64,000 bases of DNA from an uncultured Spirochaetaceae bacterium. Lineage in GTDB: Bacteria > Spirochaetota > Spirochaetia > Treponematales > Treponemataceae. The stretch covers positions 1 through 64,000 of the forward strand of contig CADANN010000002.1 of assembly GCA_902789325.1 (NCBI GenBank), written 5' to 3'. The position numbers and the translations under genes were made by a program. Under the pieces are notes generated by a model. It was not told the DNA's origin. It did not search any database and saw nothing but the letters and a program-made list of their open reading frames with translations. Shown here one piece after another: positions 18,677 through 58,712 of this stretch (positions are counted from its first letter, which is position 1; every line of letters begins with the position of its first letter).

Positions 18677-21631
18677 CTACCTCTTTTCAATAATTACGTT
18701 TTTTAAGAATGGAAGCTCATCATCACGAAGCAGTATTTTTTCAACCACTACATCCGCATCTAAATCAAAAACTTCTACCGAATTGATGGAAAGAATCTCG
18801 TTAATTTTTTCCAGTTGCTTCATAACCATACCCATGGTTACTTCTTTTCCGAACTCCCAGCCAGAACCGTTATCACCTTCAAGACAATCAAAATTCCGTC
18901 TCAAACATTCTTCAATACGAGCCTTAGTTTTTCCTTCATCAAGGACATCGCTCTTAAAGGTTATTGTAAGTGTAATATTGAACTCTTTGTAAACCGGTGC
19001 CTGAACACATAAAGGAGTTCCTACAAGTTTTCTGTCATCAAGATATTCTTTTACTCTGCGTATTAATTCTCTTGAAGGAAGCAGTTTTACATCGTAGCCT
19101 ACTCCTGCAGGACGAGCCGGAATAATTACCGTGCAAACTTCATTTTTTGCATTGCGCTTTTTAAGGCAGTATGATCGACCAACACTTGCCGAAGCTTCAC
19201 GCGCCAGCCATTGAAAGTCTTCTGCAGTAACTGCACGCTGAAGACTCTTAAATGCGCCCGCTGCACGGCTCTTAAGGTTATCTACAGTTTCCATATCTGC
19301 GCCGCCTTCTGCCGGAAACGGATTTGTACAGCCAGAAATAAACGGAATACTTTGAATCAAGCCCTGTAATGTATTTCTTGCAACATTACCAACTGTTCCG
19401 CCTCCAGTGTGATATGACTTCATAAGAATATTAAACTTACCCTTAGGAGGATTAACACCTTTTACGCCATCACCAAAAAGGATTCTTCCGTTTGAATAAT
19501 CAATTACATAGTGTCTTGAAAAAGCATTAGATGAATAAAAATTTTCTACCTCTGTATATCTAACCCAGACACCGTCATCCTTTTCAAAATAAGGTTCTGT
19601 ACCACAATCTTTTTTAATAATTTCCAGTTCATTAGCTGAAGGGATTGATTTTTCATTTACATATAAAACAGAGCCTTTAAGAATGTCCTTATGGGCAACA
19701 AAGAGAGACTGTCCTGGAGCTCCTGTACCAGAACCTATTATTTCATTTTCATAAGTCTTTTCATTTTTTGCATAAACACAATTTAAAAGGATATCCTGAA
19801 TAAAAGGTCTGTTTTCAAAACTGCCGGAAAGTAAAGTCACTCTGAGCCAGTAAAGTTTTTTTCCAAATTCTTCAACAGGGCTCATATCTTCCGGTATCAC
19901 CATGTCTACAAAACCAGACTGATGGAATGAATCAGTATTATCGCTTACAGAAAGCGCAGTCCACTTTTCACCGTTGAAGTATTCCCACTGAAGGTTAATC
20001 ATTCTTGGGGCAGCTGTATTAATAAGAGCATCATTACGGAAATCTTTAAATACATTCTGCTCAAGCTGATTTACAGTTTCATCCATTCGGAAATAAATTG
20101 AAGCATCGCCCACCGGTAAACAGTTACTTAAACCAATATACAAAGAAGGCAGCTGACTTTCGTTTACATCGAACAAAGTAATTTCTTTATCTTCCTTACC
20201 TTTTACAAAAGCTGGAATATTTTTCCATACAAAATTACTATAGGTATTGCATCTTTGTGGTGGAAGTTTAAGAGACTCATATTTGATTCGTATTTTTGCA
20301 ATTTCTGGACTCTGAACTTTTGATGTAAAATGCCAGATCCAGTTGTCCTTATCATCTTTTACATATTCACCGCCAATGGCAAAATCTTTTGTAATAAGAC
20401 GAACGCGAATCCAGTAATGTTCTTCGTTATTTACATTTACAACAGAAAGTTTTTCTGGAATTGTGAAAGATACTGTACCAGACTGTTTAAGGTCAAAAGT
20501 TCCGTCAATAAAATTATCATCAGAATTTAATTTAACCCAGTCATTGCCATTCCAGTACTCATACACAAAAGTGGCATTTTTATTTTCTTCCTGATTGATA
20601 TAGGTTTCACTAAAAAAGTATGTAATCTCAGCCTTGGTATTTTTATTTCTGAAAATATCATCAGCGCAGATATAAAAGCATTCGTTATACAAAGGATTAT
20701 CTGAGAACATATTGAACGAGGTATTCATATCAATAAGTTCATATTTAGCCTCGTAATTAGCAAGACATGCATCTGGCGAAAATCCCATTCCACCAAAAAT
20801 AGTTTTTAACGAAATGCCTTTTGCAGAAAGCGCATTTTTATCTGATGGTATATCAGTAAGAATACCACGAATCCATAATCCTTCTTTTCCGTTTACTTCT
20901 ACAGGCTGAATTGGAATACCACCGTTGAAATAAATTGTATTATCTTTTTCGTGAAGATTATTTACAGAAGATGAAGTTATAAGATTAGTCCACTTTTCTC
21001 CATCCCAGAATTCCCAGAACATATGTTTTACAAGTTCTGCATTTACAGAAGTTATTTCCTGAATTGGAGTAATTGAAAGCTGAATGTAATGTTCGTTTTC
21101 AAGATACTTAAAAGAATCAGACATTACATATAAAGCATGTTCAATTTCATTCTTAGAATCAAAAATATAGAAACCATTTAATTTTTCTGATTCAACATTT
21201 TCATTCCAGTTTTCTTTATATTTATTTACACAGCTTAAAAGTTTGGCATTACTAACACGAATATTTTTTTCAGTTTCAAAAACAATATCATCAGCATCAC
21301 TAACAACAGCTGCAATTTGAGTTCCAGTTTTAATTTCGATATTTTTGGAAACTCCTTCAACAGGGAAAAATTGAATGATTGCTCTAGCACTTTGAGGAGT
21401 AACGAGAGAAAGCCCCATTAATTCAAGAAGAGAAAGATAAGTTTTATCCGGAACCTTATTCAATCTGTAAATAGTCATTTCCGTCATCCACGAAAATAAC
21501 TCCAGTAAAGTAATACCAGGATCAGACGTATTATGATTAGTCCATTCAGGGCAATAGCGAGGAATTAATCTTAGAGCTTCATTAAAAATGTCATCGAACG
21601 TTCTATCGTCCAAATTGATTTTGGGAATCAC
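18677..21631 (-). CDS. Baseplate assembly protein J-like (Afp11-type), 984 aa
   Basis: The N-terminus (RLIPRYCPEWTNHNTSDPGI then LLELFSWMTEMTIYRLNKVP) is the hallmark of the putative baseplate assembly protein family TIGR02243. The C-terminal part (GGGTVGNVARNTL, then AVTAEDFQWLAREAS and LIRRVKEYLDDRKLVGT) is the gpJ/gp6 wedge core. Large beta-rich insertions fill residues 150-600. It forms the baseplate wedge that connects hub and sheath initiation. Its start overlaps the gp25 gene by 29 nt, so the two are coupled. Confidence 0.9.
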   Translation of the reverse strand: MIPKINLDDRTFDDIFNEALRLIPRYCPEWTNHNTSDPGITLLELFSWMTEMTIYRLNKVPDKTYLSLLELMGLSLVTPQSARAIIQFFPVEGVSKNIEIKTGTQIAAVVSDADDIVFETEKNIRVSNAKLLSCVNKYKENWNENVESEKLNGFYIFDSKNEIEHALYVMSDSFKYLENEHYIQLSITPIQEITSVNAELVKHMFWEFWDGEKWTNLITSSSVNNLHEKDNTIYFNGGIPIQPVEVNGKEGLWIRGILTDIPSDKNALSAKGISLKTIFGGMGFSPDACLANYEAKYELIDMNTSFNMFSDNPLYNECFYICADDIFRNKNTKAEITYFFSETYINQEENKNATFVYEYWNGNDWVKLNSDDNFIDGTFDLKQSGTVSFTIPEKLSVVNVNNEEHYWIRVRLITKDFAIGGEYVKDDKDNWIWHFTSKVQSPEIAKIRIKYESLKLPPQRCNTYSNFVWKNIPAFVKGKEDKEITLFDVNESQLPSLYIGLSNCLPVGDASIYFRMDETVNQLEQNVFKDFRNDALINTAAPRMINLQWEYFNGEKWTALSVSDNTDSFHQSGFVDMVIPEDMSPVEEFGKKLYWLRVTLLSGSFENRPFIQDILLNCVYAKNEKTYENEIIGSGTGAPGQSLFVAHKDILKGSVLYVNEKSIPSANELEIIKKDCGTEPYFEKDDGVWVRYTEVENFYSSNAFSRHYVIDYSNGRILFGDGVKGVNPPKGKFNILMKSYHTGGGTVGNVARNTLQGLIQSIPFISGCTNPFPAEGGADMETVDNLKSRAAGAFKSLQRAVTAEDFQWLAREASASVGRSYCLKKRNAKNEVCTVIIPARPAGVGYDVKLLPSRELIRRVKEYLDDRKLVGTPLCVQAPVYKEFNITLTITFKSDVLDEGKTKARIEECLRRNFDCLEGDNGSGWEFGKEVTMGMVMKQLEKINEILSINSVEVFDLDADVVVEKILLRDDELPFLKNVIIEKR

Positions 21632-22025
21632 TTTCGCCTCTCTCCAAATAAAATGGATAAACCATGTTAAAAAAAGTGTTTACCGAGCGTATTTCATAAT
21701 CGATAGAAATATTAATCTTAACGGGATTATCCGGATCAGGTTCTCCCGTTACAGATTTAAGAATTACGCGTGGCTCCCATTTAACAATGGCTTCTTCAAT
21801 GTAATGAATAGCAAGTGAAATTGTTCTTGAAGAATTTGGAAAGAAAATGATTTCGTTAATTTTACATCCGAAATCCGGATGCATTACTCTCTCTCCCGGA
21901 GTTGTGTTGAGAATAATCCTGATAGACTCTTCAATACTTTTTTCAAAACTGGAGGTTGCAATTTTACCATGGACATCTATTTCCACAGGAAACTTCCAAC
22001 CTTTTCCAAGTATATTTCTATTCAT
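21603..22025 (-). CDS. GPW/gp25 family baseplate protein (Afp9)
   Basis: A 140-residue gp25 family protein with the diagnostic segments SIRIILNTTPGERVMHPDFG and an AIVKWEPRVILKSV strand pattern. gp25 is a universal CIS component that seeds sheath assembly at the baseplate. It is the first gene of the leftward operon. The C-terminus (SDSQNQFGR) overlaps the gpJ-like gene start. Confidence 0.93.
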   Translation of the reverse strand: MNRNILGKGWKFPVEIDVHGKIATSSFEKSIEESIRIILNTTPGERVMHPDFGCKINEIIFFPNSSRTISLAIHYIEEAIVKWEPRVILKSVTGEPDPDNPVKINISIDYEIRSVNTFFNMVYPFYLERGESDSQNQFGR

Positions 22026-22085: not shown

Positions 22086-22114
22086 AGGTTAAACTGACAA
22101 GTGTAATAAGTCAA
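22086..22114 (-). promoter_or_regulatory. Predicted sigma-70 promoter of the leftward CIS operon
   Basis: On the minus strand TTGACT (22114-22109) and TAACCT (22091-22086) are separated by 17 nt. Transcription would begin near 22,078, giving a leader of about 50 nt before the gp25 ATG. The -35 box is good and the -10 box is weak, which fits a promoter needing an activator. Confidence 0.45.
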
Positions 22115-22134: not shown

Positions 22135-22254
22135 TGTCATAATTGTCACAAATTTAAAATCAGCACAATTGTGACATTTATGACATCAATTGTGACAATT
22201 ATGACATCGATTTGTGACAATTATGACGTGTTTTATGACCTCAGAATTTTGACA
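22135..22254. repeat. Phased TGAC(A) half-site array in the divergent control region
   Basis: The 16-mer TGTGACAATTATGACA occurs at 22191-22206, with near copies at 22170-22185 and 22213-22228 and an inverted copy at 22135-22150. Within this span TGAC half-sites on the plus strand start at 22172, 22181, 22193, 22202, 22215, 22224, 22236 and 22250. The spacings alternate near 9 and 12 nt, so pairs repeat every 21-22 nt, two turns of the helix. This is the layout of a cooperative operator for a dimeric DNA-binding protein acting on both operons. No regulator gene is evident in the CIS locus. Confidence 0.75.
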
Positions 22255-22276
22255 TTTCGCCATTTCATTTTATAAT
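22249..22276 (+). promoter_or_regulatory. Near-consensus sigma-70 promoter of the rightward CIS operon
   Basis: TTGACA (22249-22254) and TATAAT (22271-22276), both consensus, are separated by 16 nt. Transcription is expected near 22,283, with a leader of about 29 nt and a GGAGA ribosome site before the DUF2997 ATG. The -35 box overlaps the last TGACA half-site of the array, so a protein bound there could block or recruit polymerase. Confidence 0.75.
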
Positions 22277-22311: not shown

Positions 22312-22524
22312 ATGGCAAAAAAACAAGAGCTCGAAATTTCAATTACAGCAGAAGGTGAAGTTTCAATAAATGTAATTGGTACAAAAGGAAAAAAGTGCCT
22401 GGACCTTACAAAAGATTTTGAAGAAGCAATTGGAATTGTAACTGAAAGAGAAACAAAACCTTCATTTTATGAAAACGAAGAATCATCATCATACATTCAT
22501 ACAGGACTAAACGGAAATGAGTAA
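22312..22524 (+). CDS. DUF2997-family small protein
   Basis: The 70-residue protein matches DUF2997: ELEISITAEGEVSINVIGTK, then GKKCLDLTKDFEEAIG and a Y/F-E ending region (PSFYENEE). DUF2997 proteins are encoded beside DUF1257 (Ycf35) in cyanobacteria and other bacteria; their function is unknown. Here it is the first gene of the rightward CIS operon, while the DUF1257 gene is in the opposite operon. The end overlaps the next gene by 8 nt, so they are coupled. The invariant-looking single Cys in GKKCLDL could be a ligand or modification site. Confidence 0.85.
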   Translation: MAKKQELEISITAEGEVSINVIGTKGKKCLDLTKDFEEAIGIVTERETKPSFYENEESSSYIHTGLNGNE

Positions 22525-31239: not shown

Positions 31240-32349
31240 ATGAAAAGACTTATTTTATTTTTATTATTCCTTTTAAATATAGCATTTGCTTATAGTCAAG
31301 AATATTCTTGGAAAACAAATAAGAATGGGTATTATTATAAATATGACAAAAGTACAATTTATTATTATTCCCAAAGTAATCAGCCTTATGAAAAAGATAT
31401 GAATGTTAACATATTCGCTTATAAATTTTTGCATGACGGCTCTGATAAGGTTATTGGTTTAGTCGATGAAACAGAAAATTTATTTATTGATTTTGATGAT
31501 CTAAGTTTTACAAACTTTTCAACATATCTTCCAGAAAAATTGCTAAAAGGTGAATGGATTCATTCATATTATTTTGATGCATTAAAAGCTAAGGATCCTG
31601 AAATAATTTTACAGAATGAACCATGGTGGGATGAAAGAAAAGGCTGGAAACCTGATCCATATGGAGAATATCCTTTGTCATGGGGTGAAGAATTTCAATA
31701 TAATTATGGTGCATATTATTTTACTAAATTTACATTTTCCAATGGACATGTATATTACTATATTGATAAAATCCAAAAAAAAGATGAATATTATTACATA
31801 ACTTCAAAAAGAAGGGATTCAAAAGAATTCGATGAAAAAGATCGAAAAGAATATTCAATGTCTTCAGATTATAAAAAAATACAAAATTTTTCAGAAATTG
31901 ATTTAATCATAAAACTAGATGGCGAATATATCGATGTTTATCTGAATTCGATTGATAATTATTTGGGAACCTATTGTTATGCAAATTCGGAAACAGTGCG
32001 TGAACTTTGGCATTTTGCTCGAATTACAGATAATTTTACTGTGAATTATAATAATGTTAGATATCCCCGCCACGCCGATGGTTCTTGTGACTACGACGGA
32101 AGCAAAAATATTAAAACTCAAACAGCAATATCTACATCTTCAAAAAATGGTAAAACAGACAAAACAATGACTGTCTCTGAAAACCTAAAACTCCGCTCAG
32201 GCGAAGCCACCTCTACACAAGTCCTAACAATAATGTCCGCTGGTACAAAAGTAAAAATCCTTGAACTAGGCAAAGCCGAAACAATCGATGGCATTTCCTC
32301 AAAGTTGAAGTTCAAGCAAATGCCAAAGACCGTGACGGTAAACCAATAA
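31240..32349 (+). CDS. Secreted SH3-domain protein 1, candidate immunity protein (frameshifted C-end)
   Basis: The 369-residue precursor has a signal peptide (LILFLLFLLNIAFAYSQ). The body is Tyr/Asp-rich and unrecognised, with an ADGSCDYDGSK linker near 282. It ends in a bacterial SH3 domain (ENLKLRSGEATSTQ to GTKVKILELGKAETIDGIS). After ISS the frame breaks: the usual SH3 ending, here KVEVQANAKDRDGK to GWCYGGYLK, is intact in another frame down to the TAA at 32391-32393, so the product instead ends in 15 unrelated residues. It follows the M23 gene by 15 nt. A periplasmic protein beside a peptidoglycan hydrolase lacking a signal suggests immunity; that is inferred. Confidence 0.65.
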   Translation: MKRLILFLLFLLNIAFAYSQEYSWKTNKNGYYYKYDKSTIYYYSQSNQPYEKDMNVNIFAYKFLHDGSDKVIGLVDETENLFIDFDDLSFTNFSTYLPEKLLKGEWIHSYYFDALKAKDPEIILQNEPWWDERKGWKPDPYGEYPLSWGEEFQYNYGAYYFTKFTFSNGHVYYYIDKIQKKDEYYYITSKRRDSKEFDEKDRKEYSMSSDYKKIQNFSEIDLIIKLDGEYIDVYLNSIDNYLGTYCYANSETVRELWHFARITDNFTVNYNNVRYPRHADGSCDYDGSKNIKTQTAISTSSKNGKTDKTMTVSENLKLRSGEATSTQVLTIMSAGTKVKILELGKAETIDGISSKLKFKQMPKTVTVNQ

Positions 32350-32405: not shown

Positions 32406-33276
32406 TTATAAATACTGGCTTTTTTTGTTTATAACTGCTTTGTCAGACAAATCAGTTATAAATATTCCTGATGAAAATTTTGATAAACAAAAAAATAGCA
32501 TAAATATGTTTTCCAAAATGAAAAAAGTATTCAGTGAAAATTTATTTGCATTTTACAATCCTATTTGTTTTTTGGATAAATTAGATAAAGCTGGATTATT
32601 TGAGTTTAATCCATATTTGATTTTAAATACACTCAAAACTTCATATGATTCCTACTATAAAAATCAAAAACAACCCAGGATTTATGCCTTATAATATCAC
32701 ATACACTGAAGCCAATAGGTATTCAACAATGATTAGTCAGGTATTTAATACCCCAAATAATTCAGGAAGTTATTATCATGAAGGTGTTGATATTTCTGTA
32801 GAATGGAAAGAAGGAATTCCTATAAAATCATTAATTAATGGAGAAGTAGTTTATTCAAATGATCAAAGCGATTGGACATATGGAAGATTTATTGTTATAA
32901 AAGCAAATAATAAATATAAGGGTTACAATATTTTTTATTTACTTGGTCACCTTGATAGAAATAAAAAAATAGTTGAAAAAAACAACCCGTTTATCCAGGA
33001 ATGACAGTTGGATATGTTGGTAATACAGGTCATTGTACTTCTGGAAGTGTTGATATGAAAGGCCCTGGATTTAAAAAAGAACGAGCAACAGGAATGGGAC
33101 GACATTTACATTTGGAAGTTTTTGAAACGAAAAAGAATAATTTTGAAAATTCTTTTATAATAGATATATCCAAAACTGATCCCAAAAAGAAAGTAGCAGT
33201 TCTATACGAAAACGCACCTATTGTAAATCCTTTTAATTTTGAAGAACCATATATAAAAGGACTAATGGAGGTTTAA
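32398..33276 (+). pseudogene. Decayed M23 peptidase gene, broken in three frames
   Basis: Three overlapping frames together encode the C-terminal part of an M23 peptidase like that at 27460. The first (to 32694) holds KAGLFEFNPY, matching LKLLEFNPYAG of the intact gene. The second (32645-33004) holds NNPGFMPY and the zinc-ligand motif YYHEGVDIS. The third (33001-33276) holds VGYVGNTGHCTSG and the HLHLEVF ligand motif. Frame changes lie near 32,670 (in a CAACCCAGG stretch) and near 32,985 (AACAACCCG). The large N-terminal part of the intact protein is absent. The catalytic residues survive but are split. It sits before a second SH3 protein gene, repeating the M23-SH3 order. Confidence 0.75.
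32401..32427 (+). terminator. Rho-independent terminator after SH3 protein 1
   Basis: GCCGGTTA and TACTGGC form a short stem with a G-U pair, followed by TTTTTTT. It lies directly after the ancestral stop at 32391-32393 and matches the terminator after copy 2 in place and sequence, so it probably travels with the cassette. Confidence 0.65.
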
Positions 33277-33278
33277 TA

Positions 33279-34310
33279 ATGAAAAAAAAAATTATATTAG
33301 TAATTATTTTTTTATTTTCTTTCACATTTTTCTTTGCAGAAACATTTGATATTATAATAAATAAAGATACTTATTATGTTGATGAAATTAATAATAATTT
33401 AGAAAGACTTAAAAAAGAAACATTTATCACTGTTAACTGTGATAATGCTGAAATTTCAAGATCCAATAATGATGAGGAGGGAACAGAGGCTTTATTGTAC
33501 ATAGATGAAAAAGGAATATATCTAAAAGATATTTTCGTAAATAATAATAGTGAGTGTTTACCAAAAGGCATTATAGGCACAACTTACACAATGAATTATT
33601 ATCTAGAAGACATTTTTAATAAAGAAATTCCCGCTAAATTATTTGAACATGAGCCATATCTTATTGATTTTTGGAATAGAGAAATTCGAAATGATGGAGA
33701 ATATTACAGAGACTTCTTTTTTCCATATTCACTTAAATTTTTTAATTATTTTTATATCGAAGATGAAGTTTTTTATTCTCCATATACTAGAAATCCCCTG
33801 TTTATTAAAAATATAGAAAAAACAGATAATGAATTTATTATTTATATCATTCCAATGACATATAGCAAAAATACTCTTCCAATTTATAATAATGTTATAG
33901 ATTCAAAAAAAATTAATAAATTAATTTTTAAATTCGATGGTGATTATTTATTTATATATAAAAATAATAAATTAATTTTTAAACTAGTAAAGACAAATGA
34001 AGATACTTTATTTCAAATACGAAATTTTTATTTAAATAAACAATATGATATATCTAAAATAATGTGGCCAAAATACGCTGACGGCTCCTGTGATTACGAC
34101 GGCAGTAAAACAACAGCGACAATTCAAACTGGGAAAGTAGCATCTTCAACAAACGTTACTCAAAACAAAACAATGACTGTCTCCGAAAACCTCAAACTCC
34201 GCTCAGGTGAAGCCACCTCTACACAAGTCCTAACAATAATGTCCGCTGGTACAAAAGTAAAAATCCTTGAACTAGGCAAAGCCGAAACAATCGATGGCAT
34301 TTCCTCATAA
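33279..34310 (+). CDS. Secreted SH3-domain protein 2, candidate immunity protein (truncated SH3)
   Basis: A 343-residue precursor with signal peptide (IILVIIFLFSFTFFFAET), a divergent AT-rich body, the same ADGSCDYDGSK linker and the same SH3 start as the protein at 31240. The frame stops at a TAA right after GISS; the rest of the SH3 domain (KVEVQANAKDRDGK to GWCYGGYLK) is still readable in another frame to 34402. It follows the decayed M23 gene by 2 nt with a GGAGG ribosome site. If the M23-SH3 order reflects toxin and immunity, this is an orphan immunity gene kept after its toxin decayed. Confidence 0.65.
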   Translation: MKKKIILVIIFLFSFTFFFAETFDIIINKDTYYVDEINNNLERLKKETFITVNCDNAEISRSNNDEEGTEALLYIDEKGIYLKDIFVNNNSECLPKGIIGTTYTMNYYLEDIFNKEIPAKLFEHEPYLIDFWNREIRNDGEYYRDFFFPYSLKFFNYFYIEDEVFYSPYTRNPLFIKNIEKTDNEFIIYIIPMTYSKNTLPIYNNVIDSKKINKLIFKFDGDYLFIYKNNKLIFKLVKTNEDTLFQIRNFYLNKQYDISKIMWPKYADGSCDYDGSKTTATIQTGKVASSTNVTQNKTMTVSENLKLRSGEATSTQVLTIMSAGTKVKILELGKAETIDGISS

Positions 34311-55181: not shown

Positions 55182-56608
55182 TGACTAAAAAAATGAAACT
55201 CCCAGACTTACTGAAGGATTTTGGCAAGGTATTTTCAAATGCAGGATTTAAGGCTTACCTTGTTGGTGGTGCTGTACGCGACATGATTATGAAGGTTCCG
55301 GCTCACGACTGGGATGTTGCAACAAATGCCACTCCTCAGGATGTGATTAAACTTTTTAAGTTTGTTGTACCAACTGGAATTGAACACGGTACCGTTACGG
55401 TTCATTACAAAGGCACAGAAATAGAAGTTACAACCTTCCGCACAGAAGCAGGCTATTCCGACGGCCGCCACCCGGATTCTGTAAATTACGCAGCCACAAT
55501 CGAAGAAGACCTTGCCCGCCGCGATTTTACCATGAACGCGATTGCGGCTTCTCTTGAAGACGGAGTTATAGTAGATCCCTATGGCGGACAGGATGATATC
55601 AAAAAGAAGCTGATACGCACCGTTGGCGCTCCTCACGAACGCTTTATGGAAGACGGCTTACGCCCTGTACGTGCCTTAAGATTTGCCGCAAAACTTAATT
55701 TTAGTATAGAAAAAGATACATATTCAGAAATATTCAAGGAAGAAATTCAGAAAAAAGTTACCTCAATTTCAATTGAACGCTTTAGAGACGAGTTTGAAAA
55801 AATCATGAAAGCCCCGCTTCCATCAGTAGGCTTAAAAATGATGGAAGAAACTGGTATTCTCACACTCTTTATACCGGAATTCAGCGTATGTCGTGGCTGC
55901 GTACAGTCAGATTACAGAGCATTCCACAAGTTTGATGTATTAGACCATCTTTTTTATGCTTGTGACGGAGCTCCTGCCGACAAGCTGAATGTTCGTCTGG
56001 CTGCCCTTTTTCACGACATTGGAAAACCTGCCGCAAAAAAAATCATCAAAGAAACAGTATTGGATGGCGACAAAAACGATGGCAGCACAAAAGAAATTGA
56101 AACAATCACATTTTACAATCACGAATCCTTTAGTGAAAAGATTGCAGAAAAGATTCTTGTACGCCTGAGATTTCCTAACGAGACTGTACATAATGTCTGC
56201 CACCTGGTAAAAGAACACATGTTCCATTACGAACAAAGCTGGAGCGATTCAGCAGTTCGCCGTTTTATTGTACGAGTAAAGCCAGAGTGCCTGGAAGATC
56301 TCTACGACCTCCGCATTGCAGATATGTATGGAATGTATAATGAAAAGGTAGATGTCCGCTACAGTGCAAGCCTTGCCCTTTTGCAGGAGCTTGATGAGCG
56401 TGTACAAAAAGAACTGGAAAAGAAAACAGCACTTTCTCTTAAGTCGCTTGCGGTAAACGGACGCGATCTTATGGCAGAAGGAATTCCTTCTGGAAAAGAA
56501 CTCGGCCGCATTTTAAATGAACTTTTAGATTGCGTTATTGAGGATCCGGAAATGAATAAAAGAGAGATTCTTTTGGAGACTGCTAAAAAAATCAGCCGAA
56601 CTTCTTAA
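55178..56608 (+). CDS. cca: CCA tRNA nucleotidyltransferase / poly(A) polymerase family
   Basis: A 476-residue class II nucleotidyltransferase: GGAVRD, the catalytic DxD as HDWDVAT, FRTEAGYSDGRHPD, and the RRDFTMNAIA motif. The central head domain has RALRFAAKLNFSIE, and an HD domain follows (LAALFHDIGKPAAKK, then HESFSEKIAEKIL). It adds or repairs the tRNA 3' CCA end. This fits the two tRNA genes in the window, which do not encode CCA. The 3' end overlaps the response regulator gene on the other strand by 17 nt. Confidence 0.92.
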   Translation: MMTKKMKLPDLLKDFGKVFSNAGFKAYLVGGAVRDMIMKVPAHDWDVATNATPQDVIKLFKFVVPTGIEHGTVTVHYKGTEIEVTTFRTEAGYSDGRHPDSVNYAATIEEDLARRDFTMNAIAASLEDGVIVDPYGGQDDIKKKLIRTVGAPHERFMEDGLRPVRALRFAAKLNFSIEKDTYSEIFKEEIQKKVTSISIERFRDEFEKIMKAPLPSVGLKMMEETGILTLFIPEFSVCRGCVQSDYRAFHKFDVLDHLFYACDGAPADKLNVRLAALFHDIGKPAAKKIIKETVLDGDKNDGSTKEIETITFYNHESFSEKIAEKILVRLRFPNETVHNVCHLVKEHMFHYEQSWSDSAVRRFIVRVKPECLEDLYDLRIADMYGMYNEKVDVRYSASLALLQELDERVQKELEKKTALSLKSLAVNGRDLMAEGIPSGKELGRILNELLDCVIEDPEMNKREILLETAKKISRTS

Positions 56609-57209
56609 TCAGTTCTTCGTGGCCGCGGCAACCAGTTTTACCGTAAATGCGCGAAAGGTAATTTTCTACACTGCGCAAGGTAAGATTTAGTTCTGCGGCA
56701 ATTTTTTCGTTATCTTTGCGCTCAATAATCTTCTTGAAAATATTCTGTTCCTGGCGTGTAAGACTGTCCAGAAGATTTCTATAGGTAAAAAGAGAAGTTA
56801 CAAGGCTCTGCTGAACATAACTTCCACCGTTTACGACATCAGTTACGGCACGCAGCAACTCACCTTCCATGCTGTCTTTAGAAACAAAACCGAGCGCACC
56901 ATAATCGAGTGCAAGACTCAAAATACCAGGGTTTGTATACATAGAATGAACAACAACCTTTACAGTCGGATATTTTTCTTTTACTACTTTAAGAATATCA
57001 AGGCCACTGCACTCTCCAAGATTCAAATCAAGAATCAAAACATTAGGGAGATTTTCTGTCTGGGCAAGTTCAGCTAACTTTTCAATAGCTTCATCACGTT
57101 CAGAAGCAAAACCGCAGCAGTTGAAATTAGATTTTTCGCTAAAAAACTGTCTTATTCCGAGATTTGTAAGAGAATGATCTTCTACGACAAATATGCTTGT
57201 GTTTTTCAT
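56592..57209 (-). CDS. NarL/LuxR-type response regulator
   Basis: A 205-residue regulator from ATG 57209: receiver domain with acidic pocket (FVVEDHS), phospho-Asp in VLILDLNLGECSG, and Lys in GFVSKDSMEG. The C-terminal LuxR helix-turn-helix has LTRQEQNIFKKIIERKD and LRSVENYLSRIYGKTG. ATG 57209 is chosen because AGGA lies 7 nt upstream and the receiver begins at once. A GTG at 57293 overlapping the kinase stop would add 28 non-conserved residues. It pairs with the histidine kinase upstream. The target genes are unknown. Confidence 0.9.
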   Translation of the reverse strand: MKNTSIFVVEDHSLTNLGIRQFFSEKSNFNCCGFASERDEAIEKLAELAQTENLPNVLILDLNLGECSGLDILKVVKEKYPTVKVVVHSMYTNPGILSLALDYGALGFVSKDSMEGELLRAVTDVVNGGSYVQQSLVTSLFTYRNLLDSLTRQEQNIFKKIIERKDNEKIAAELNLTLRSVENYLSRIYGKTGCRGHEELIKKFG

Positions 57210-57289
57210 TTTTTTATCCTGATATTTTATATTAACAGAGTTTATTTGATTTGTAGAGAGTGACAACGCATAAATTTTCTGTGAATTTT

Positions 57290-58102
57290 TCACACTTTCT
57301 GTTTTATAAGAGTGATTTGAGTTCCTTCATCAGGATGCGAATCTATCTCAAGTTTCGCACCAATAAAGTCTGCACGCTCCCTCATTCCTACAAGGCCAAG
57401 ATGACTTCCGTCTGTACCGCGGGCTTCTCCCAGCTCTGAAACTTCAAACCCAATACCATCATCACTAATAAAAATATAAATGCCTTCCAGCTCACCTTCG
57501 TTTGCATTTCGCAAAAGAATAGTAACCTCACTAGCCTGTGCATGCTTAAGGATATTTGTGAGAGCTTCCTGCACAATTCTGTAGATATTCAGATTATCTT
57601 CTTCACTCAAAAAACTGGTATCAATTTTCTCGGGCATTGTAAGGCGGAATTCTATATCAGAATGTTCCTTAAAATTTTGAGAAAGATTCATTACATTTGC
57701 AGTAATATCGTTTCGAATTACATCTGGAGGTGCAAGGTTATAACTCATACTTCGAACCTGAGATAGAGTTTTTTCCAGAAGAGATGATATTGACGGTCCA
57801 AGTTCGGGATCTTTTTTATCATGAATCTTTTCGGAAAGAGAACGGCAATAACGCAAATCCTGTGCGATAGTGTCGTGTAGCTCGCGGGCAATTCTTGCAC
57901 GCTCTTCTTCCTGCCCCTTGATTGTAAAACGCAGATAACGGCTTGAGTTTTTAAGCCTTTTTTTGGATTTTAAATACTGAATGGCAAATAAGATAATCAG
58001 AATAATTGTAATAAAAAAGATAATGTCAAAAATTATAAAAAAAGTTGTATATTGATGAATTATTTCCTGTAATTTTTGAATTTCCTGCTGAGCATTCTGC
58101 AT
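57290..58102 (-). CDS. NarX/DesK-type sensor histidine kinase
   Basis: A 270-residue kinase with one transmembrane helix near the N-terminus (FIIFDIIFFITIILIILFA), a HisKA_3 dimerisation domain with the phospho-His in RARIARELHDTIAQDL, and an ATPase domain (IVQEALTNILKHAQAS, ISDDGIGFE, LGLVGMRERADFIG). It has almost no extracytoplasmic domain, so it may sense the membrane or a partner protein; the ECF-like membrane protein encoded 1 nt upstream is a candidate. The ATG at 58102 has GGAGG 9 nt upstream. Confidence 0.9.
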   Translation of the reverse strand: MQNAQQEIQKLQEIIHQYTTFFIIFDIIFFITIILIILFAIQYLKSKKRLKNSSRYLRFTIKGQEEERARIARELHDTIAQDLRYCRSLSEKIHDKKDPELGPSISSLLEKTLSQVRSMSYNLAPPDVIRNDITANVMNLSQNFKEHSDIEFRLTMPEKIDTSFLSEEDNLNIYRIVQEALTNILKHAQASEVTILLRNANEGELEGIYIFISDDGIGFEVSELGEARGTDGSHLGLVGMRERADFIGAKLEIDSHPDEGTQITLIKQKV

Positions 58103-58103
58103 A

Positions 58104-58712
58104 TTACAAGTCCTCCGGGGCACCTAAAAACTTTTCATAAAGCTTGTAAACTCCATAACCGGCAAAGGTTGTAACAAGACGATCAGTTATTGAAATAGGA
58201 ATCTGACCTAAAATGCAGGAAGCAAAAAGCCCAAACTTTTGAGAAACAAAGCCTTCCGTAAACTGCTTAATAGGAGCCATAGAATCAGGAATTTCAAAAT
58301 AAGAAAAGCGGATAAAATCTATAACCCCTCCAATAAAAACCGTTGCTAAAGAAGACAGAAGAGCAATCAGCAGAAGATACAGAATATTAATTTGAATACT
58401 TATCTGGAATTCCTGTTTCTTACGAGCAAAAGCCCAGGTTACAAGAACAATAGCAACACCGCATAAAGAAAAAAATATATTTGTAGGAGAAACAATTCCA
58501 CGGACTAAATAATTAAACGCAGTATCTACAAAATTAAATAAAAAGCCAACAATAAGGCCAGGAACAAGACCAAGATAGAAAACGATGGCAACAGTAAAAA
58601 TCGTGTCTAAAAATAAAGGAATATGAAGTACATCAAAGAAAAGCAGGCTGAATCCTAAATTTAAAATGATAGAAGCAATACAAAATAAAGCAATTTTACA
58701 TCGACGTTTCAT
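58104..58712 (-). CDS. ECF-transporter S-component-like membrane protein
   Basis: A 202-residue protein with five or six transmembrane helices (ALFCIASIILNLGFSLLFFD, IFTVAIVFYLGLVPGLIVGF, ILYLLLIALLSSLATVFIGG). The spacing and the conserved-looking region after helix 2 (GFLFNFVDTAFNYLVRG) resemble substrate-binding S components of energy-coupling-factor transporters. No ECF ATPase is adjacent. The ATG at 58712 is chosen; a longer frame would run into the divergent helicase gene. No ribosome site precedes this ATG, and a TATAAT lies 6 nt upstream, so the message may be leaderless. It is followed directly by the kinase gene and may share its regulation or act as its sensor. Confidence 0.65.
   Translation of the reverse strand: MKRRCKIALFCIASIILNLGFSLLFFDVLHIPLFLDTIFTVAIVFYLGLVPGLIVGFLFNFVDTAFNYLVRGIVSPTNIFFSLCGVAIVLVTWAFARKKQEFQISIQINILYLLLIALLSSLATVFIGGVIDFIRFSYFEIPDSMAPIKQFTEGFVSQKFGLFASCILGQIPISITDRLVTTFAGYGVYKLYEKFLGAPEDL

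Follow-up and report, generated by a model that had tools for sequence, protein, structure and literature searches.

The gap between the two divergent operons of a contractile injection system (CIS) in the 64,000-nt stretch of DNA analysed here (the window) carries four near-identical 16-nt repeat units, one facing the left operon and three the right. With a probability of about two in three, this array is an activator region through which a regulator of the P0003 type, a membrane-anchored family with a LuxR/NarL-type helix-turn-helix (HTH), would switch on both CIS operons. The array, its promoters and the first gene on either side are as follows.

21603–22025, minus strand: first gene of the left operon, baseplate wedge gp25-like (PF04965)
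22086–22114, minus strand: left promoter of the left CIS operon, TTGACT-17-TAACCT, with the weaker -10
22135–22150, minus strand: left unit, exact match to TGTGACAATTATGACA, heptamers TGTGACA and TATGACA head-to-tail, facing the left CIS operon
22170–22185, plus strand: right unit 3 (distal), TGTGACATTTATGACA, one mismatch to TGTGACAATTATGACA, absent in the sister species
22191–22206, plus strand: right unit 2, exact match to TGTGACAATTATGACA, absent in the sister species
22213–22228, plus strand: right unit 1 (proximal), TGTGACAATTATGACG, one mismatch to TGTGACAATTATGACA, conserved in the sister species
22234–22240, plus strand: weak heptamer TATGACC, profile score 5.8 against 11.9 for a full heptamer, not conserved in the sister species
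22249–22276, plus strand: right promoter of the right CIS operon, TTGACA-16-TATAAT, a perfect -35/-10 pair
22312–22524, plus strand: first gene of the right operon, DUF2997 protein

Repeat units and promoters between the CIS operons

Beyond the gp25-like gene, the left operon encodes baseplate J, sheath and tube proteins (PF19266, PF06841), and the right operon continues after the DUF2997 gene with baseplate-related and OB-fold/PAAR spike genes. An earlier note on this DNA had described eight forward TGAC half-sites between the operons, four near-identical 16-nt units with one inverted, and a period of 21–22 nt, and each of these was recovered. Specifically, forward TGAC motifs start at 22172, 22181, 22193, 22202, 22215, 22224, 22236 and 22250 (spacings 9, 12, 9, 13, 9, 12 and 14 nt), and inverted GTCA motifs at 22136 and 22145 bring the count to ten TGAC/GTCA per 120 nt. 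The right units are centred at 22177.5, 22198.5 and 22220.5, that is 21 and 22 bp apart, so that the three copies lie on one face of the DNA. The last TGAC falls within the right -35, also as described. The figure of eight half-sites holds in part, with six being full or nearly full heptamers; the seventh, TATGACC, is a weak match, and the eighth consists mainly of the -35 itself. The weak heptamer nevertheless keeps to the register, lying 21 bp downstream of where right unit 1 begins, and next to the -35 it is a possible low-affinity site.

The claim that the array exceeds chance was supported by the count of ten, the highest among the 120-nt stretches sampled in the window and reached in none of 20,000 first-order Markov simulations using the region's own dinucleotides (mean 2.6). 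The units are not scattered through the genome either. No fifth match to TGTGACAATTATGACA within three mismatches was found across the 64-kb window, and TGTGACANTTATGAC with 0–1 mismatch occurred in the 3.15-Mb assembly at no place besides the four array units; a slightly wider pattern returned one extra 1-mismatch site in the same genome, a palindrome. The intergenic region had no match in a phage collection, and a 17-nt motif searched against 2.9 million viral contigs was found in 13 contigs with one or two matches each. Single motif matches in three other genomes (G080, G421 and G081) were inside predicted ORFs. Matches to TGTGACATCTGTGACA in G419, G021, G431 and G476 were set aside as part of short tandem 9-mers of the CTGTGACAT type, which are often intergenic (L104, L107, L108, L113, L115, L116 and L119) and look unrelated to the CIS array.

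Sigma-70-like hexamer pairs with a spacer within 16–18 nt are present on both sides of the gap. Right unit 1 ends exactly 20 nt before the right -35, and the left -35 begins 20 nt after the left unit. The centre of the proximal unit is about 28 bp upstream of the first base of the -35, at about -62 from the expected transcription start, and on both sides the conserved units are entirely upstream of the -35, with none over a -10 or start. Fixed upstream spacing of this kind is typical of activators. An array that represses (silences) the CIS instead, a reading that overlaps with the choice of regulator, would suit the right promoter, which is already a perfect consensus, as perfect-consensus promoters often go with repression; some boxes of the wider regulon described below also abut a -10. 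The position of the conserved CIS units, upstream of both promoters and near -62, speaks against repression and makes it unlikely.

Conservation of the array in a sister species

The close relative used for comparison (the sister) is an uncultured Treponema MAG, CAMJNC010000001.1, whose baseplate J protein is 89% identical. The divergent CIS gap is kept in the sister and holds exactly two units, TGTGACAATTGTGACA, one facing each operon, with no further units in the sister genome except one 1-mismatch palindrome. The sister right promoter (TTGACT-16-TATAAT) is in the same place, and its left promoter has the same hexamers, spacing and gap as that of the window genome, giving a distance of 20 nt between proximal unit and -35 in all four promoters (two species, two sides). 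It is thus the 16-nt units, not the seventh half-site, that are conserved. At position 11, the four window units all have A and the two sister units both have G, indicating that left and right units changed together within each lineage.

The earlier note had named conservation of the syntenic gap as a check, and the units are indeed conserved at a fixed promoter distance in this close relative. In the more distant CIS relatives whose gap can be read (J proteins 52–70% identical) the units were absent, so that the wiring is lineage-specific. The CIS itself is rare in this group: of 394 genomes of the order searched for the J protein, 12 gave a match, which was weak in two, and of 59 genomes searched for the sheath only the window's own had it. 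The J protein had no relatives among the viral contigs. The two species carry the CIS at different chromosomal places. In the sister it adjoins a [175-aa, P0003]-pyrF locus (L067, G414:C1:66000-79736), and in the window genome it adjoins glycosidase and mre genes, the pyrF–regulator locus of that genome (L068, G000:C16) being on contig C16, which is without a CIS.

A period of 21–22 bp resembles that of replication iterons and TnsB-type end repeats, and the unit copy number differs between the two species, as might be expected if the repeats were a mobile-element end, an iteron or a chance expansion in place of a CIS control region. This is a barely credible reading, given that no transposase or Rep family was found among the window genes scanned with Pfam (part of the ORFs), that the two species agree in where the units lie and how far they are from both promoters, and that the same heptamer forms a regulon elsewhere.

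A shared heptamer and a candidate regulator family

Several Treponema genomes carry the heptamer TRTGACA in inverted boxes, TGTGACA-NN-TGTCACA (7-2-7), and the half-site is therefore common to a wider regulon and not private to the CIS. Inverted versions of the half-site, TGTGACANNTGTCACA, have three occurrences in the window genome, one in the sister and none in the five other relatives tested; for three of these four sites a plausible -35/-10 pair follows 20 nt downstream. Among 200 congeneric genomes few carry exact palindromes, and about half of these sites lie within approximately 1 kb of genes of one protein family. Matches to a looser box, RTGACRNNWGTCAY, were counted on both strands, so that a full palindrome counts twice, and exceeded the control in the window's own genome (21 vs 4), G162 (31 vs 6) and G192 (27 vs 8), compared with G001 (0 vs 8), G112 (0 vs 0) and G108 (0 vs 2). 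The excess was seen in genomes with the regulator subfamily described below and not in most of those without it. In a few instances this correspondence fails, as G014 and G427 have the subfamily yet little or no box excess, and G475 (84% complete) has many boxes with only a weak regulator-family match.

The genes beside the boxes include many predicted lipoproteins or secreted proteins as well as the regulators' own operons. Box pairs 32 bp apart recur, and the inverted boxes upstream of the regulators' own operons often form such a pair plus one box abutting the -10. This three-box layout was seen in L125 (786/818/922), on the reverse strand in L128 (793/825/897) and on the reverse strand in L068 (7746/7778/7818), and looks like an arrangement for activation plus negative feedback. 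A further 32-bp pair is present on the sister's CIS contig (G470:C1:33722 and 33754; L212 2223 and 2255), roughly 34 kb from the CIS intergenic array. A fixed box-to--10 distance was not supported across the wider regulon, where it varies between roughly 49 and 62 bp, unlike the fixed promoter distance that holds for the CIS promoters.

A heptamer profile was built from 42 palindromic boxes, all outside the CIS; TGAC was fixed by the search pattern, so that only the flanking positions are informative. The profile reads T-R-TGAC-A, with A 57 and G 27 at position 2, TATGACA thus being commoner in the regulon than TGTGACA. The CIS heptamers are at the top of the profile scores (TGTGACA 11.9; TATGACA 11.8 forward and -4.1 reverse). 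They are paired at 22170/22179, 22191/22200, 22213/22222 and 22135/22144 as 7-bp half-sites 2 bp apart, and are direct repeats, not inverted as in the regulon boxes. Since both heptamers of a CIS unit match the profile in the forward direction, the 7-2-7 spacing is kept in a head-to-tail form. Heptamers at 22170, 22179, 22191, 22200, 22213, 22222 and, weakly, 22234 occur at about one per helical turn up to the -35.

The family beside the boxes is typified by P0003, a 269-aa protein encoded directly downstream of the sister's CIS (L041:2117-2926), behind a 175-aa gene that has a box upstream of it. In P0003, about six hydrophobic stretches are accompanied by an HTH at the C terminus. The HTH profile of the family matches the structures of LuxR/NarL-type DesR (E 2.7e-6), VraR and GerE; searches of Pfam and NCBIfam with P0003 did not name the family and gave no GerE hit, only a weak Sigma70_r4_2 match. 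A recognition helix, SEGA(L/M)RNKLS, is common to eight homologues, seven of which have boxes within 1.5 kb, compared with 2 of the 35 homologues whose helix is different or missing, and a reversed-pattern control gave no matches near these homologues. The hypergeometric p for this association is about 1e-5, a value not corrected for relatedness among what are related, not independent, species. The one member with this helix and no box nearby is in G014:C10 (L127). The window genome encodes two paralogues with the same helix (G000:C16:10813-11586 and C16:15984-16757), and no family member was found on the window's CIS contig. The earlier note had stated that no regulator gene lies in the locus; this is correct for the CIS contig as regards this family, but a candidate can now be named, encoded on C16 and, in the sister, beside the CIS.

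Other DNA-binding proteins were weighed against this family. CRP class I sites are centred near -62 and read TGTGA-N6-TCACA, so that a CRP/FNR-type activator binding the units as degenerate versions of this site would account for the activator-like unit position; the palindromic regulon boxes fit the CRP motif, and a single base separates the sister unit from this motif. In all six CIS units, however, the right half is TGAC and not TCAC, so that they are not palindromic and the CRP palindrome is not matched, and in the regulon TATGACA outnumbers TGTGACA as the heptamer. A search for a dedicated canonical CRP/FNR protein found none: PF13545 matches in the window genome are partial (best 27.6 vs a cut-off of 27 bits, over 33 positions), and cNMP-binding proteins (PF00027 search) are present in each of the 14 genomes tested, whether these carry boxes or lack them, and have the same sizes in the box-less relatives. 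A CRP common to the genus would leave unexplained why the boxes are restricted to a few genomes and cluster beside NarL-type regulators, and we regard control by a CRP/FNR-type protein as very unlikely.

The array might also be read by another trans-acting regulator, such as the 175-aa partner of P0003, whose gene often comes before that of the regulator and may be relevant, or the response regulator of NarL type (56592-57293, GerE domain) that stands with a histidine kinase at 56592-58123 in the window, 34 kb from the array. As several regulators keep their boxes without an adjoining 175-aa gene (L126, L129, L077), and the response regulator differs in its recognition helix (TLRSVENYLSRIY) and is far from the CIS, this is distinctly improbable. 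LytTR/AgrA-type sites, which are 9-bp repeats with a 21-bp period, had been considered on spacing and were dropped, the heptamer and linked HTH being of NarL type.

Proposed mechanism and comparison with known systems

The reader of the array is most likely the membrane-anchored LuxR/NarL-type family of P0003. The array, its conservation, the promoter gaps, the heptamer in common and the link between regulators and boxes are seen in the sequences, and from them we infer binding, activation, signal and cooperativity as follows: the regulator would act on an envelope or membrane signal, occupy the array with roughly one monomer for each helical turn and bring RNA polymerase to both promoters, so that the CIS would be co-expressed with a regulon of lipoprotein and envelope genes. 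The suggestion of the earlier note that the array is a cooperative switch for the whole CIS is supported, as to the switch, by units that face each operon, stand 20 nt from each -35 and are conserved in the sister; its cooperative part is plausible from the 21–22 bp phasing. Several observations weigh against the P0003-type reading. In the window genome the regulator is encoded away from the CIS. The CIS heptamers run head-to-tail and the boxes linked to the regulators are inverted, so that a different paralogue or protein could read the CIS array. Further weak points are the exceptions given above (L127, G014, G427 and G475), the varying box-to--10 distance of the wider regulon and the common ancestry of the species counted. 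A wider account, which we put forward tentatively and at somewhat less than even odds, is that a membrane-embedded one-component NarL-type family of Treponema controls envelope lipoprotein genes via inverted 7-2-7 boxes and may have captured a sporadic CIS via head-to-tail arrays.

NarL prefers inverted heptamers 2 bp apart (7-2-7), bound as a dimer (PMC4549865), and NarL monomers are found on other heptamer arrangements (PMC2718512). The operators of E. coli NarL/NarP resemble the CIS units in having two 7-bp half-sites with a 2-bp gap, their proteins resemble the candidate regulator in the LuxR/NarL-type HTH, and the operators resemble the Treponema regulon boxes (TGTGACA-NN-TGTCACA) also in being inverted. 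The CIS units differ in that both heptamers point the same way and read TRTGACA, and the candidate regulator differs from NarL in being membrane-anchored and in showing no receiver domain. BvgA, also of the NarL family, places dimers every 22 bp on one DNA face with the proximal site abutting the -35 (PMC7250471). With its right units 21 and 22 bp apart on one DNA face, the CIS array may be comparable to the BvgA arrays at Bordetella promoters, although BvgA is a phosphorylated response regulator binding as head-to-head dimers and the CIS heptamers are head-to-tail. In the -35-abutting register of BvgA, the CIS has only the weak heptamer at 22234 and the sister no extra units; the 20-nt CIS gap to the -35 is room for one more such register.

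In the survey of Geller et al. (2021, PMC8213781), a GerE-domain gene flanks 25.8% of eCIS loci, so that a LuxR-type regulator beside a CIS, as in the sister, is already known, and NarL-type operators are classical. P0003 differs from these eCIS-adjacent regulators in lacking a GerE Pfam hit and in being membrane-anchored, and the passages of PMC8213781 consulted describe no operator. Literature searches returned nothing on the regulation of a Treponema CIS, and no description of the CIS operator, of its head-to-tail form or of the membrane-anchored family and the box that goes with it turned up in the literature and databases searched.

To our knowledge, what switches on contractile injection systems is largely unknown. 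Here the combination of a precise operator with a predicted family of regulators and a small predicted regulon makes CIS control directly testable. If the wider account above holds, production of the injection machine would be tied to the state of the cell envelope. The head-to-tail variant beside inverted regulon boxes also offers a test of how much heptamer orientation weighs for NarL-type proteins.

At its 3' end, the right operon carries two related secreted SH3-type proteins (region of 31240-32349, 32645-33004 and 33279-34310). Both SH3-type reading frames break off within the same conserved C-terminal stretch, and a peptidase M23-like fragment lies between the two broken frames. The SH3-type forms of the sister are longer and open, at 834 and 383 aa.
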